Virus record (IMG/VR): IMGVR_UViG_3300036785_001212
Coordinates: 1 to 39,410 of that record
Reading direction: 5' to 3' (one strand)
DNA: 39,410 nt
From: a virus
In this document: one piece after another, positions 429 to 38,108 of the stretch
Position numbering within the stretch: the stretch's first letter is position 1
Layout: the number at the start of each line of letters is the position of its first letter
Notes under the pieces: generated by a model
What the model was told of the DNA's origin: nothing
The model's input: only the letters and a program-made list of their open reading frames with translations
The model's database searches: none
Position numbers and translations under genes: made by a program

Positions 429-761
429 TCATTCTCCTCTCGACGTTCGCTTGGTATGGCACGCCTTGCATAACGCCATACAGTTCGCTTCCACCAACTT
501 TAGAGTGGGATCGATCTTTACCTTGCATACGTGGTGAACCTCGGTCGCGAGCCGCGCGCAATCGTTACAGAACGGATGACGCGCCAAATACCACTTCCGG
601 TATCGCTCCCAATTCCGGTCATAGCCGCGCTCGCGCGATGAACCACGGTTGCGATCGAGAGCATCCCACCGTTGAAGATCCGCCGCTTTGCGGTGCCCTT
701 CGCAATAGCCACGCAATACGAGCTCCGGACAACCCGGCTGAAGACACGGCCGCTTGATCAT
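429..761 (-). CDS. HNH endonuclease
   Basis: A 110-residue protein with an early Cys pair region (CLQPGCPE, about residues 6-11), a basic middle (RGYDRNWERYRKWYLARHPFCNDC) and the HNH core near residues 76-103: VHH, then an Asn-containing stretch (EANCMALCKACHTKRT). The spaced Cys pairs CNDC and CKAC would bind the structural zinc. The length fits free-standing phage HNH nucleases, which in cos-type phages cooperate with terminase during packaging. Its ATG overlaps the stop of the upstream gene (ATGA at 758-761). If the window is circular it lies about 1.5 kb upstream of the small terminase gene, the usual position for this type. Confidence 0.88.
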   Translation of the reverse strand: MIKRPCLQPGCPELVLRGYCEGHRKAADLQRWDALDRNRGSSRERGYDRNWERYRKWYLARHPFCNDCARLATEVHHVCKVKIDPTLKLVEANCMALCKACHTKRTSRGE

Positions 762-3068: not shown

Positions 3069-3896
3069 TCACAGGGACCGTAAACCGCGATCGATGAGAA
3101 ACGGCTGTTTTACTTCGGGCCAACTCTCCGGCTTATTCCAATACCCTTCGCCGAAAAACTTCGATGCGCTCCACTTGAATCGAAGCTCCGCGCGACAATA
3201 TCGCTGCCAGCACGTCATAAGCTGGAGCGCGGTCGTTGCTGGTGCCTCGCCTTTATCCGCTTCCTGCTGGATTACTTTCCGGATGATGCGCGCGAGCCGG
3301 GAAGACGTGAAACCGCATCCCTGCGTTGTTGCTGTCACGGCATAGTCGATCTTTCGCAGCTCCTCGATCCGTTCTGGACTCGTTGGCAGCTTTTGGGGAC
3401 TATGGGGTTGGGTCTTTAATGGGTCTATAACGGGTCTACCTAATAGGGGGTGTGGGGGAAATGTCTCTGAGACGTTTTCGTGTGTCTCTGAGACGTTTTC
3501 GTGTGTCTCTGAGACGTTTTCGTGTGTCTCTGAGACGTTGTTTTCCTCGATGTCTCTGAGACGTTTCCCGCTCCCCGATGTTTTCCCCTGCGCCAATCGG
3601 AATTGCTCCGCATACCGCTCGACAAGATTCGCCCCAAGGAGCTCGGTATTTAACTGGATCCCGGGAGTACGCCGCGGGCCGCGATCGATTTTGATGATGA
3701 GCCCGATCTCGATAAATACCTGTATGACCCGAAGCACGGTGCGCTTGTTCTGCTCGGTTAATCTCACGATGAAATCAATCGACGGCCACCCGTAACCCTC
3801 GCCGTTCATCTGATCGGCAATCAGGGCGAGTACACCCTTCGCGATCGGATTCCCGAGCCGGGTCTCATACGCCGGTTTTATCCATTCGTGGCTCAC
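3069..3896 (-). CDS. Phage replication initiator (winged-helix, lambda O-like role)
   Basis: 275 codons from GTG 3896 (GAGG eleven bases upstream); the open frame extends to a TTG at 4040, but that part overlaps the previous gene and looks non-coding. Residues 4-70 match the HTH_36-type winged helix of phage replication proteins: NPIAKGVLALIADQMNGEGY, then WPSIDFIVRLTEQNKRTVLR, then a wing ending GLIIKIDRG. A flexible middle contains four copies of the heptad NVSETHE, produced by DNA repeats that look like iterons (see repeat entry). The C-terminal domain ends with KFFGEGYWNKPESW, common in such proteins. It would bind the origin inside its own gene and recruit host helicase; no phage helicase or primase is visible nearby. 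Confidence 0.75.
   Translation of the reverse strand: MSHEWIKPAYETRLGNPIAKGVLALIADQMNGEGYGWPSIDFIVRLTEQNKRTVLRVIQVFIEIGLIIKIDRGPRRTPGIQLNTELLGANLVERYAEQFRLAQGKTSGSGKRLRDIEENNVSETHENVSETHENVSETHENVSETFPPHPLLGRPVIDPLKTQPHSPQKLPTSPERIEELRKIDYAVTATTQGCGFTSSRLARIIRKVIQQEADKGEAPATTALQLMTCWQRYCRAELRFKWSASKFFGEGYWNKPESWPEVKQPFLIDRGLRSL
3410..3442. repeat. Three 11-bp direct repeats beside the iterons
   Basis: GGGTCT occurs at 3410, 3421 and 3432, exactly 11 bases apart, each followed by an A/T-richer pentamer (TTAAT, ATAAC, ACCTA). Eleven is not a multiple of three, so the encoded residues differ between copies. This points to selection on the DNA rather than on the protein. The array sits 21 bases from the first 21-bp repeat and could be the AT-richer unwinding side or an accessory protein site of an origin. 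Confidence 0.5.
3463..3562. repeat. Iteron array: five copies of GTCTCTGAGAC, candidate replication origin
   Basis: The 11-bp palindrome GTCTC-T-GAGAC starts at 3463, 3484, 3505, 3526 and 3552. The first four are part of a perfect 21-bp tandem repeat (palindrome plus GTTTTCGTGT); the fifth is 26 bases on and followed by GTTTCC. Copies 1-4 encode NVSET in one frame, but copy 5 is read in another frame as R-L-R-D, so the DNA motif is conserved independent of the peptide. Symmetric iterons inside an initiator gene are the layout of the lambda origin within gene O. Confidence 0.7.
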
Positions 3897-4032
3897 CGCG
3901 GAATTAACCTCATTGTCTACATCAGAAAGGAGCCCGCGGCATCGCAAGCGCCGGACAGGGAGTGTACAGCGCATGAAACACCGCGGACCTCCCACACCGG
4001 TCCGGGTAAACTCGGTGCGGAAGCCAGAAACG

Positions 4033-4779
4033 TTAGGCAATAATCAATGCTTCGGGAAGTTGCTCGCGCAGATAATCGCGAACCGAATTCATCGTGTCAC
4101 GAATCCACTTTTCATCGATCTCAAAGAGTGCGATCCGCGGCAGGCTATCCTTCGCGGTCTTCATTCGTAGCAGGAATTTACTCTCGACCGGCGTCGCTTC
4201 ACGGAAGGTGCGCCATGGAATCAGAGGAACACCTTCGGCCGGTAGCGTTACCGGAGCTTTGTTGATCGTTCCGGTAGAGATTACAACCGTCTGCGACATT
4301 CCGTCATCGGCGATGCTCACCGTTGAACCAGTTTCGAGCTTCGAACATAGCTGCTGGACCTTCGTCGCCTCGTCGTTGAAGTAAAAGCCCGCGCGGAATT
4401 TGATGATGAAATCTTCGGGAAGATAGTAGTTGTCAAAAGCAAAATCGGTCTCAGCATCGTGGCGCGCGCTTACGTACTGATGCCGGTTCCCGAAGTCATC
4501 GGCAACAATATCCACGATTCGCACCGTTCTAGGATCGACAACGCAGACGGCCACTTTAGACGACTCAAGTCCATCGAGTTGTGCCTTGTACGCTGCCACC
4601 ACCGCGGACAATGTTGAAACACAGAGTGTCGGCTTCTGAATCGTTGGGTCCGGGTCTCGGACGTATTCGCCAAGTGTCCCGTCAACCCGGACGGCATAAT
4701 TCTTGCCGTTCACTTCGACGGTGATCGGATTCTTCGGCGTTTGTAGTTTCGCAAGATATTGGAGAGCTTCAGCGATCAC
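4033..4779 (-). CDS. Conserved phage protein of unknown function
   Basis: About 249 codons; GTG 4779 has AGGG seven bases upstream, while a TTG two codons earlier (4785) is the alternative. The middle (ALCVSTLSAVVAAYK, VCVVDPRTVRIVD, HQYVSARHDAE, FAFDNYYLPEDFIIKF) and C-terminus (PWRTFREATPVESKFLLRMK, then ALFEIDEKWIRDTMNSVRDY) resemble a protein found in many Gram-positive siphovirus and prophage early regions, next to the protein annotated as replication terminator. Both are present here. It has mixed alpha/beta character and no catalytic motif I can name. A role in replication or recombination is inferred from neighbours only. Confidence 0.7.
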   Translation of the reverse strand: MIAEALQYLAKLQTPKNPITVEVNGKNYAVRVDGTLGEYVRDPDPTIQKPTLCVSTLSAVVAAYKAQLDGLESSKVAVCVVDPRTVRIVDIVADDFGNRHQYVSARHDAETDFAFDNYYLPEDFIIKFRAGFYFNDEATKVQQLCSKLETGSTVSIADDGMSQTVVISTGTINKAPVTLPAEGVPLIPWRTFREATPVESKFLLRMKTAKDSLPRIALFEIDEKWIRDTMNSVRDYLREQLPEALIIA

Positions 4780-4848
4780 GTTCAATCCCTGTCTGCGGAG
4801 CTCCGGCTCCGCTCCGGTTAATCAGAATGAATAGACAGAAGCCGGGCG

Positions 4849-5064
4849 CTAACCCGGCTCCCTGACCGCCGCATGAGCAGATTTGTCGTCCCTGTTTTGA
4901 GCACTCGTTTCTCCCTTCCCGCTTGCGGCGGATCCCCAATCAAAAGCGCCCCGTAGTCGGCGGCAGCACTCGCGCGTGTGAAGTATTCCCGTGTCACAGT
5001 CAGCGCAAAAGTCAGTCCGTTTGAGATTGACTTCTCCGCACGCGCACATCACTCTTCGGCTCAA
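4849..5064 (-). CDS. Small zinc-ribbon protein
   Basis: 71 residues whose first half holds C-A-C-G, then C-A-D-C about ten residues later, then a C-C pair (MCACGEVNLKRTDFCADC); two CxC/CxxC knuckles suggest one zinc. The second half is polar and probably disordered. The start overlaps the stop of the upstream gene by ATGA, which supports it being translated. The stretch downstream (4780-4848) holds no gene. Family not recognised. Confidence 0.55.
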   Translation of the reverse strand: MSRRVMCACGEVNLKRTDFCADCDTGILHTRECCRRLRGAFDWGSAASGKGETSAQNRDDKSAHAAVREPG

Positions 5065-5438
5065 TTCCCGGCCCTGAATTCAATCGGGTCCGGAGCTTTC
5101 GCGGGCTTCGGTGGACTCCAGAGCGGCATCTGCCGCGGATCGGCGTCAAAGGCAACCAGCGCACCCTCTTCGGCCCGACCGAGAAAGATTTTAGATTTGT
5201 GTGTTTCGATCGAGGCGAGCTTCGAGCCGCACTTGAATTCTGTCTCGATAACGACGCGATCGGAGTGAGGTTTGAGAATCAATTCGAGCCGTACCGCGCG
5301 TACTGCCGTGGCCGGAGTATTTAGGTCAGCGATGTTTTCAAGTGCCTTGCGAAGCTCGATCGCAAAGCCATCGATCATCGCGCCTTCATTGATAGTGTTG
5401 ATGTCGATAACAGCCAGGTCGCCCTGTAGTTCCGGCAT
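5061..5438 (-). CDS. Phage protein of the so-called replication terminator family
   Basis: 125 residues from ATG 5438, preceded by GGAGGT at seven bases; an upstream in-frame TTG is less likely. The sequence DINTINEGAMIDGFAIELRK, then ALENIADLNT, then VRLELILKPHSDRVVIETEF, matches by memory a family annotated as replication terminator protein in Firmicutes phages: a helix, an NxADPNT-like turn and two long beta strands. The title is historical and not a proven function. It lies two genes upstream of the conserved protein at 4033-4779, the usual pairing. The C-terminus is Pro-rich (LWSPPKPAKAPDP). It overlaps both neighbours (TAATG upstream, ATGA downstream). Confidence 0.75.
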   Translation of the reverse strand: MPELQGDLAVIDINTINEGAMIDGFAIELRKALENIADLNTPATAVRAVRLELILKPHSDRVVIETEFKCGSKLASIETHKSKIFLGRAEEGALVAFDADPRQMPLWSPPKPAKAPDPIEFRAGN

Positions 5439-5677
5439 TATTGCCACCTCCAATAAAAACGGCGGGCGCGCTCTCGTTCGCGCTTTTCCCGCGCCTTTAC
5501 CCTCAGTCGTTGGTTCCGTTCCCGTCGTTGCAGCATCATCTCCGCGTCATAATCGGAGAGCTGCTCCGAAACAATAGAAAACTCGTCTAACGGCCGATCC
5601 CTGTCAAAGCCAACCGCTCGAAGGTCTCTCGCAATTTTCATATCGGCGATTAAGCAATCCACACACCACTTGAGCAT
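5438..5677 (-). CDS. Hypothetical small helical protein
   Basis: 79 residues, ATG directly after the stop of the upstream gene with AAGG eight bases before it. The N-terminus has a Cys pair (WCVDC), the middle is acidic, and the last 35 residues are a strongly charged Arg/Glu helix (RRERNQRLRVKAREKRERER) ending in FYWRWQ. Looks like a small nucleic-acid-associated or scaffold-type protein. Not recognised. Confidence 0.6.
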   Translation of the reverse strand: MLKWCVDCLIADMKIARDLRAVGFDRDRPLDEFSIVSEQLSDYDAEMMLQRRERNQRLRVKAREKRERERARRFYWRWQ

Positions 5678-36323: not shown

Positions 36324-38108
36324 TCAAATCACGACCAGCCCGCGGGACGCATAGACAGATACCTTCGTCTTGTTCACCATCGCGCGTGAGATCGCATTGA
36401 GAAGCGCAGATACCGGATCGATTTTGCTGATGCCGTTTTTCTCTTTCCGCGGGAAGATATTGTCATTGAAATCGGCGCGCGCGATGACGCAACTCATCGC
36501 CCACGAGAGAACCGGATCACCGTTGTGATGAAACCGCCGTCCCAAGACCGCGGCTTCCACTTCCTTCATAGCTTCGGAAAGATATTGCGTCGTCTGGGGG
36601 ATGGACACGATCGTATCCTCGCCCATCTTCGCGGCCAAGTCTTGCTGCATCTGGAGCGCGCTCCACGGATCGAACGCAATACACTTCCGATCAAATCCCG
36701 GGATTTCTTCCTCGATCTGTTTCTGGATCGACGCAAGTTGAATCTCCGGCCCGGGCATCGCTTCGAGCGATCCATCCTCCACCCATCGCGCGTAGTGTTC
36801 GTGCTCGCCATCCTGTACTCGATCGAGCGGTACATAGTGATGACCGAAAACATAGTAATGAAGAGCTCCACCTTCGAACCGCGGGAAGACCTTACAACGC
36901 GAAGCCAGATCAATCTTCGCGGCCAGATCGACGCCTTCGTAACAAACTTGCTTCGCGAAGCTCTCCAGCTTCAGAGCCGGGTCCGCGCAGGTATCCCACG
37001 CAGCCATATTCATCCAGCCCGATGCCGCATTAACCCAGAGATTCAGGTGTTTTGTCTTGAATACGTTTTGTTTGTGGTTTGACTGGATCGCGCCCACCTG
37101 TGCGTCGAGCAGGAAGCTCTCCGAGACGGATACGCCGAAGTTTGGGTTTGCTTTTTGGAGTGCGGATTTTGACTTCCAATCATCCCCCTTGTCAATCGTG
37201 AAAATGATCCCGAAGCGCCGCTCGTTTTCGATCCGGCCCTCAAGCATCATCTCCACTTCACGCTGCATGGTGTGACACGGACCTTCGATGCTCGATCCGG
37301 CCGTGGAGATTACGAACAGAAGCGCCTGAGACCGCGCGCCCATTCCCGTCTGCATCGTGTCGAGAAGCGAGCTCGTCGGGTGTTCGTGGTATTCATCGAT
37401 GATCGCGCAACTCGGCGAGCTTCCGTCACCGGGATCACCGACCATCGGCTGAAAGCGGCTCCCGTCACCCTCGATGTAGAGACTCTTGGCCGCGGCTTTT
37501 ACGCCGAAGACGTCATACAGGTCGGGCGTCTTGCGGGCCATCTGCCACGCGGACCGGAAAACCTCCATCGCCTGACGTTCCGTCGTGGCGCCAGAGTAAA
37601 TCTCCGCGGACTGCTCTTTGTCCATGCAGAGCATATAGAGACCGATTGCCGCGGCCAGCGTTGACTTACCATTCTTCCGTGGAACCAAGACCAATACTTC
37701 CCGAAAGCGGCGTTTCCCGCTCCGCTTCTCTACCCACCCGAAGATAGACGCGACAATGAAGACCTGCCACGACCCAAGACGAAAGCGGTCCGTGCGGCCG
37801 GTCCCGACCCGGGCCCACTCGCCGCGAACGTGGGGGAGCTCCTCAATGAAACGACAGGCTCGCCCGGCGAGCTTGCCGTCAAACCGGAAGGAGAAATCCT
37901 TCGTGCGCTGCCGTTCAAGGTCAGCGAGATGCCGCTGGCACGCCAGCTTGACCCATACGCAAGCCGGGATCAATCCCTCTGCGACCTCCCGGGCATACCG
38001 GTGCGCGACCTCCGCGTGACGAAGATCAGGCCCGATCCCGGCCGCGAATTTCCTGCGCGAGGCCGGCGAGGGCACTTCCGCGGGCGGAATTTGGATTGCT
38101 TCCTGCAT
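36324..38108 (-). CDS. terL: Large terminase subunit
   Basis: 594 residues. ATPase: Walker A-like VLVPRKNGKSTLAAAIGLYM (residues 141-160), Walker B CAIIDEYHE (234-242), coupling motif LLFVISTAGSS. Nuclease domain: VDLAAKIDLASRCKVFPRFE, which carries acidic metal ligands, plus later KCIAFDPWSALQMQ. The ordering and LVPRKNGKS motif are of the Terminase_1 (HK97-like) family. It docks on the portal and pumps DNA. Overlaps the small terminase gene by 83 bases (an internal start is possible, but ATG 38108 has AAGG three bases upstream). Confidence 0.93.
   Translation of the reverse strand: MQEAIQIPPAEVPSPASRRKFAAGIGPDLRHAEVAHRYAREVAEGLIPACVWVKLACQRHLADLERQRTKDFSFRFDGKLAGRACRFIEELPHVRGEWARVGTGRTDRFRLGSWQVFIVASIFGWVEKRSGKRRFREVLVLVPRKNGKSTLAAAIGLYMLCMDKEQSAEIYSGATTERQAMEVFRSAWQMARKTPDLYDVFGVKAAAKSLYIEGDGSRFQPMVGDPGDGSSPSCAIIDEYHEHPTSSLLDTMQTGMGARSQALLFVISTAGSSIEGPCHTMQREVEMMLEGRIENERRFGIIFTIDKGDDWKSKSALQKANPNFGVSVSESFLLDAQVGAIQSNHKQNVFKTKHLNLWVNAASGWMNMAAWDTCADPALKLESFAKQVCYEGVDLAAKIDLASRCKVFPRFEGGALHYYVFGHHYVPLDRVQDGEHEHYARWVEDGSLEAMPGPEIQLASIQKQIEEEIPGFDRKCIAFDPWSALQMQQDLAAKMGEDTIVSIPQTTQYLSEAMKEVEAAVLGRRFHHNGDPVLSWAMSCVIARADFNDNIFPRKEKNGISKIDPVSALLNAISRAMVNKTKVSVYASRGLVVI

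Follow-up and report, generated by a model that had tools for sequence, protein, structure and literature searches.

Replication origins that lie inside the gene of their own initiator and carry symmetric iterons are already known from phage lambda and the Stx phages. Dimers of the lambda O protein occupy inverted-repeat iterons, and on supercoiled DNA they open the region next to these (PMC5043065; PMC7466680). Phage SPP1 likewise carries an origin in an initiator gene: its oriL comprises direct repeats inside gene 38 that are bound by gp38, plus an unwinding element (PMC6316719). In repABC plasmids, silent mutations located the origin within the repC coding sequence (PMC3155836). Plasmids offer known cases of short repeats in unwinding elements being held single-stranded by initiators, and repeats have been noted for the lambda origin (PMC10797057). 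Most origins of temperate phages are unannotated.

The subject of this analysis is the virus record IMGVR_UViG_3300036785_001212 of IMG/VR, whose 39,410 bases are referred to as the window. We are confident that this temperate tailed phage has a lambda-like replication origin inside its initiator gene, where the initiator would bind the iterons and replication would begin.

The initiator gene and its surroundings

The terminase, portal and tail genes of the window lie on a common strand, and a serine recombinase has an integrase match; on these grounds the window is regarded as a temperate tailed phage. The large terminase (36324-38108, minus strand) occupies the right end of the window, and its left end holds an HNH nuclease (429-761, minus strand). 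Because the order of initiator, HNH nuclease and terminase is uninterrupted in relatives, as judged by eye, the window probably represents a nearly complete genome in circularly permuted form. The gene at 4033-4785 (minus strand), the initiator's immediate upstream neighbour, matches PHROG 1029 (E 9e-40), and by eye the loci L004 and L139 seem to possess a similar gene in the same place; farther upstream, some 1.2 kb from the initiator, 5061-5453 (minus strand) matches PHROG 997, 'replication terminator'. No helicase or loader gene adjoining the initiator was recognised among the window ORFs tested. GC skew, an uninformative measure in a 39-kb phage, shows no turn near 3.5 kb. The gene and its parts are the following:

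3069-3896, minus strand: O-like replication initiator gene (HTH_36 and PHROG matches; probable start GTG at 3896)
3696-3851, minus strand: winged helix-turn-helix (HTH_36) DNA-binding domain (Pfam, residues 64-115; AlphaFold2 pLDDT above 90)
3405-3578, minus strand: disordered linker with the putative origin DNA (residues 112-169; AlphaFold2 pLDDT mostly below 50)
3150-3377, minus strand: helical C-terminal domain (AlphaFold2 pLDDT mostly above 90), exchanged among relatives

The mechanical ORF extends over 3069-4040, from a TTG at 4040. Relatives begin at the residue that matches GTG 3896, (V/M)S(H/N)(E/D), and a GAGG-type ribosome site is visible by eye upstream of 3896. A preliminary description of the window had taken the enclosing gene for that of a replication protein, and the matches to HTH_36 (Pfam, E 1.5e-6) and to phrog_1032, phrog_8540 and phrog_391, 'replication initiation O-like', bear this out; nearly all PHROG matches are to replication initiators. 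The protein falls within the O-like/HTH_36 initiator class (PHROG 1032, 8540, 391), and HTH_36 is matched by 13 of the 15 family members. In Pfam-A, searched to E 0.1, HTH_36 is the only match of the window initiator, with neither the lambda O family (Phage_rep_O) nor any plasmid Rep family among the hits; the protein family of the relatives has no Phage_rep_O match to E 0.01. A search of solved structures gave no sequence match. Since Foldseek and VIA-align returned generic winged-helix matches only (best E 0.02, Z 8.6), from comparisons that hardly took in the C-terminal domain, no structural relative is claimed.

Iterons in the window

The linker region contains five exact copies of GTCTCTGAGAC, spaced 21, 21, 21 and 26 bp from start to start. 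The 11-mer, which reads GTCTCAGAGAC on the gene strand, is a perfect dyad about one central base:

3552-3562, unstranded: iteron 1 in gene order, frame +1, encoding RLRD, 26 bp from the next copy
3526-3536, unstranded: iteron 2, frame 0, encoding VSET
3505-3515, unstranded: iteron 3, frame 0, encoding VSET
3484-3494, unstranded: iteron 4, frame 0, encoding VSET
3463-3473, unstranded: iteron 5, beside the C box, frame 0, encoding VSET

These data agree with the preliminary description, which had reported five symmetric 11-mers in the initiator linker, four of them at a 21-bp period (exact copies begin at 3463, 3484, 3505, 3526 and 3552), and had noticed that the copy at 3552-3562 is translated in a different frame, as RLRD instead of VSET. 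No further copy of GTCTCTGAGAC with 0 or 1 mismatch is present in the 39.4-kb window; the few additional similar sites all have two mismatches, i.e. the level of chance. With the same settings, a repeat detector found five copies in the initiator gene, four in one other large ORF and three or fewer in each of the remaining ORFs. Copies 2-5 are separated by an identical 10-bp spacer, HEN is encoded between the VSET copies, and the 21-bp units of the window look freshly copied, unlike those of relatives. The residues encoded by the repeats lie within the disordered stretch.

Conservation of the iterons among relatives

When 2.9 million viral contigs of IMG/VR were scanned for 11-mer pairs with a T/A centre, four contigs emerged, and each has the pair in the linker region of an O-like initiator; L098, a betaproteobacterial MAG contig, is a fifth relative with the motif of the window. 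The initiators of these five relatives (phages or MAG contigs) are 33-57% identical to that of the window, and their genes contain 20 perfect iteron copies. In the six loci including the window, 25 of 25 copies are perfect, and no copy with one or two mismatches occurs. A profile search added eight distinct iteron-bearing loci, which brings the family to 14.

In these eight loci, the palindrome is changed to GTCGCAGCGAC, GTCCCAGGGAC, GTCTGTGAGAC or GTCTCACAGAC, or is mixed (L121, L124). Most loci have every copy changed in concert, and positions 4 and 8 covary as a complementary pair (T-A, G-C, C-G); just a 4-bp palindrome arm is retained in L116, L122, L126 and part of L124. A single initiator gene of L124 (1083-2207) carries three iteron flavours, GTCTCAGAGAC, GTCTGTGAGAC and GTCTCACAGAC, possibly a site set in transition. 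Beside the C box, all 14 loci have spacings of 21 and 21 bp, with a first-copy offset of 23, 24, 26 or 54 bp; in the eight loci with a changed motif, the preceding copy is offset by 23, 24 or 54 bp.

Within the iterons, the third codon positions of identical degenerate residues agree in 153 of 153 cases, as opposed to 675 of 1265 (53%) outside. The first copy is out of frame in seven of the 14 loci (the window, L003, L004, L115, L116, L118, L121), and the encoded peptide varies among relatives (VSET, VAAT, VPGT, VSQT, VCET). Judged by these sequence comparisons, it is the DNA of the iterons that is conserved and not the peptide, as had been proposed at the outset. Repeats drifting while the protein stays conserved had been named as evidence to the contrary; what is found favours the proposal, namely a protein that drifts to 29-57% identity, and a palindrome that is either perfect or changes in both arms in step. 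Spacers vary among the relatives around an identical 11-mer, so the array is no recent duplication.

Relaxed scans for 11-mer pairs also matched unrelated repeats, namely those of L011-L013 and of almost every one of 100 bacterial stretches; a full relative is encoded by just one of these stretches, L098. In bacterial genomes, an 11-mer pair by itself is therefore not diagnostic. A search of the class of the MAG revealed seven more distant winged-helix genes, and two of the three analysed have iterons resembling the layout rule. Cultured phages gave no DNA match.

Association of iterons with the DNA-binding domain

The loci L002, L122 and L126 combine a different C-terminal domain with iterons of the type described above, which in L002 are those of the window. 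The initiator of L010 (3269-4306) shows the reverse combination: its C-terminal domain is 51% identical to that of the window, whereas its winged helix differs, and so do its repeats, a AAGGGTGACA array at an 11-bp period. These exchanges indicate that the iteron goes with the DNA-binding domain and not with the C-terminal domain, as would be expected if the winged helix reads the iteron. A comparison by eye of recognition-helix residues with iteron type in 14 sequences revealed no clear code. As the natural exchanges (L002, L010) show, recombination can join a given iteron specificity to another C-terminal domain, and the natural pairs of winged helix and palindrome offer material for a recognition code.

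A second module adjoining the iterons

The preliminary description had confined the feature to 3463-3562. The iterons are indeed found there, but the feature reaches on to a second module at 3404-3458:

3446-3458, minus strand: C box CCCCCACACCCCC, 4 nt past the last iteron; same position in 14 of 14 loci, identical in 12 of 14
3441-3445, minus strand: A/T-rich pentanucleotide TATTA; A/T only in 13 of 14 loci
3426-3436, minus strand: 11-bp repeat unit 1, GACCCGTTATA; fixed register in the family loci
3415-3425, minus strand: 11-bp repeat unit 2, GACCCATTAAA; fixed register in the family loci
3404-3414, minus strand: 11-bp repeat unit 3, core GACCC at 3410-3414; fixed register

In all 14 loci, the arrangement of 4 bases, C box, 5 bases, 4 bases and three 11-bp units is preserved without an indel. 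The units of the window are GACCCGTTATA, GACCCATTAAA and GACCC; elsewhere in the family they begin with GAACC, GTCCC or GAACT. Because 11 is not a multiple of 3, they pass through all reading frames. Their similarity to one another is unreached by random gene stretches in 13 of 14 loci, and third-codon identity is raised in the module (57/60 in the C box zone; 28/33). The A+T fraction after the iterons (+15 to +60) is 0.53 in the window and 0.36-0.58 across the family, i.e. not strongly A+T-rich. This region holds the least stable 31-mer of the window gene, which is untrue of most relatives.

A scan for the C box found nine stretches, eight of them within family loci; at the ninth, L136, no initiator reading frame spans the box, and this match is attributed to chance. 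Past the 11-bp repeats, a G+C-rich hairpin (e.g. CCCCCGCAAGCGGGGG) was observed in several relatives (L001 4950-5060, L003 2740-2840, L004 11185-11260, L098 5230-5310, L116 near 3500) and in the Stenotrophomonas phage BUCT708; none is evident in the window.

GAACC-type repeats in other phages

Initiator genes from cultured phages were chosen by protein similarity alone, with lambda added for comparison. Most of these relatives possess their own iterons, about 21-24 bp apart, followed by GAACC-type repeats; GAACC is present two to four times within 60 bp in seven of 11 genes and is absent from lambda. The Arthrobacter phage RedFox, for example, has four iterons 22 bp apart, in all three frames, and then GAACCGTCCTT at an 11-bp period.

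Two scans of IMG/VR searched for the repeats alone; their counts are lower bounds and are selected for the repeat. GAACC-type repeats occur in O-like ORFs in at least 174 places, which reduce to at least 64 distinct phage initiator genes, beside unrelated iterons. Among the matches listed, three or more direct repeats lie within 200 bp upstream in 173 of 174 places, compared with 16 of 400 random stretches; the iterons occupy at least two frames in 47 of 64 distinct genes, and all 32 sampled proteins match HTH_36. For the 39 distinct 11-bp cases among these matches, the first unit starts in the three frames 19, 11 and 9 times, and the columns that the search had not fixed are strongly biased (position 6 G/A, position 8 C/A, position 9 A). 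Among the matches listed, about half of the 11-bp places are not in a recognised O-like ORF; these comprise fragments as well as unrelated repeats. The box takes the forms GAACCRTMAND (11-bp) and GAACCNGTCA (12-bp), with GACCC and GTCCC variants in the family of the window.

An evenly balanced proposal is that HTH_36 phage initiators of very different hosts share about three repeats of a box far more conserved than their iterons: the iterons would set identity, whereas the box would serve opening or helicase loading, being read, probably as single strand, either by a host factor or by some conserved portion of the initiator. A strand-opening role of the shared element is testable in cultured phages. 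Furthermore, the rule of own linker iterons at 21-24 bp, followed by GAACC-type repeats, makes origins and initiators findable from raw sequence.

Proposed mechanism and alternative explanations

Comparison with lambda O and with plasmid unwinding elements suggests the following order of events. An initiator dimer would bind each palindrome via its winged helix, and neighbouring dimers would stack along a single face of the DNA, which they would wrap. The strands may begin to open at the adjoining 11-bp repeats, with one strand held by the initiator. The exchangeable C-terminal domain, the probable point of contact with the helicase or its loader, would then recruit the host DnaB helicase or that loader.

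The repeats might instead be operators through which the helix-turn-helix protein controls its own or neighbouring transcription, with no origin involved. Palindromes are typical of operators, and the winged helix fold resembles MarR-type repressors. We consider this improbable, because the repeats lie more than 300 bp into the gene, away from its start, and have no copy elsewhere in the window, because nearly all PHROG matches are to replication initiators, and because a second module in fixed register and a layout like that of lambda suit an origin. Even less credit is given to a partition (centromere) or packaging site for the same protein: the weak resemblance in fold to winged helices that bind plasmid centromeres (4rs8, 5k5q) is countered by the lack of a recognised partition ATPase, by homology to replication initiators, and by the genes of the same kind in BUCT708, PseuP_222 and PseuP_224, which adjoin a replicative helicase or replisome organizer.

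The conservation data leave next to no room for the array as a functional VSET peptide repeat with secondary DNA similarity, or as a recent tandem duplication without function. The former could appeal to the common frame of four window copies; it is refuted by the displaced first copy in half of the loci and by the invariant wobble positions, and the differing peptides of relatives and the predicted disorder of the linker also oppose it. The latter, to which the identical 10-bp spacer in copies 2-5 lends itself, is refuted by relatives whose spacers differ around the same 11-mer, and by conservation across divergent loci. A lambda-like origin is the reading we retain. What weighs against it is the moderate A+T content after the iterons, the lack of a GC-skew turn, the lack of a recognised helicase or loader gene beside the initiator in the ORFs tested, and the reduction of the palindrome to a 4-bp arm in four relatives.

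Comparison with known systems

In the literature searched, which included few subscription journals, the iteron, the C box and the GAACC-type box are undescribed as origin elements; searches with the letters of the iteron and of the GAACC box returned only papers seemingly unrelated by title or abstract, and topical searches nothing on the box. The shared GAACC-type second element is apparently undescribed. The repeat unit had initially been called new, and within this literature its sequence is undescribed; the layout is not confined to this phage and is widespread among HTH_36-type initiators. The phages ST64B, BUCT708, AsXd-1, PseuP_222, PseuP_224 and RedFox possess the protein class of the window, with their own linker iterons, mostly 21-24 bp apart, and GAACC-type repeats directly past them; they differ in the iterons, in a 12-bp period in several of them, and in having no C box. 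The regions of their records that were read contain no origin annotation at the iterons.

SPP1 oriL is similar in having repeats within the initiator's own gene, but belongs to a Bacillus subtilis phage and has an AT-rich unwinding element and a second origin, oriR. The repABC plasmids likewise have their origin in the initiator coding sequence, though repC has no iterons and a large A+T region. Like the window, the iteron plasmids RK2 and F combine iterons with short direct repeats, which in these plasmids lie in the opening region and are bound there by the initiator as single strand (PMC10797057). Their iterons are direct repeats bound by monomers; the window has palindromes inside the gene and no plasmid Rep family match in Pfam, which places it outside the iteron plasmids.

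With lambda ori in gene O, and with the Stx phages P27 and 933W, the window shares an origin between the DNA-binding and C-terminal parts of the initiator, four to six dyad-symmetric iterons in more than one reading frame (20-24 bp apart in lambda), and a second element directly downstream of them. The likeness to lambda ori that had been drawn beforehand holds in layout, with the lambda iterons lying inside gene O at 20, 24 and 23 bp. Two properties of the lambda type recur: several repeats inside the initiator gene (five in an O-like gene, with putative initiator binding), and dyad iterons about two helical turns apart that are constrained as DNA (symmetry, 21-bp spacing, wobble, frame). The third, about 40 bp of strongly A+T-rich DNA next to the iterons, is replaced by the C box and the 11-bp repeats; the iteron sequence is different, the spacing is a regular 21 bp, and the winged helix is HTH_36 instead of lambda's own O family. 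Because the initiator is outside lambda's Pfam family and the A+T tract is missing, we describe the locus as lambda-ori-like in its putative action, and as a variant of that type.
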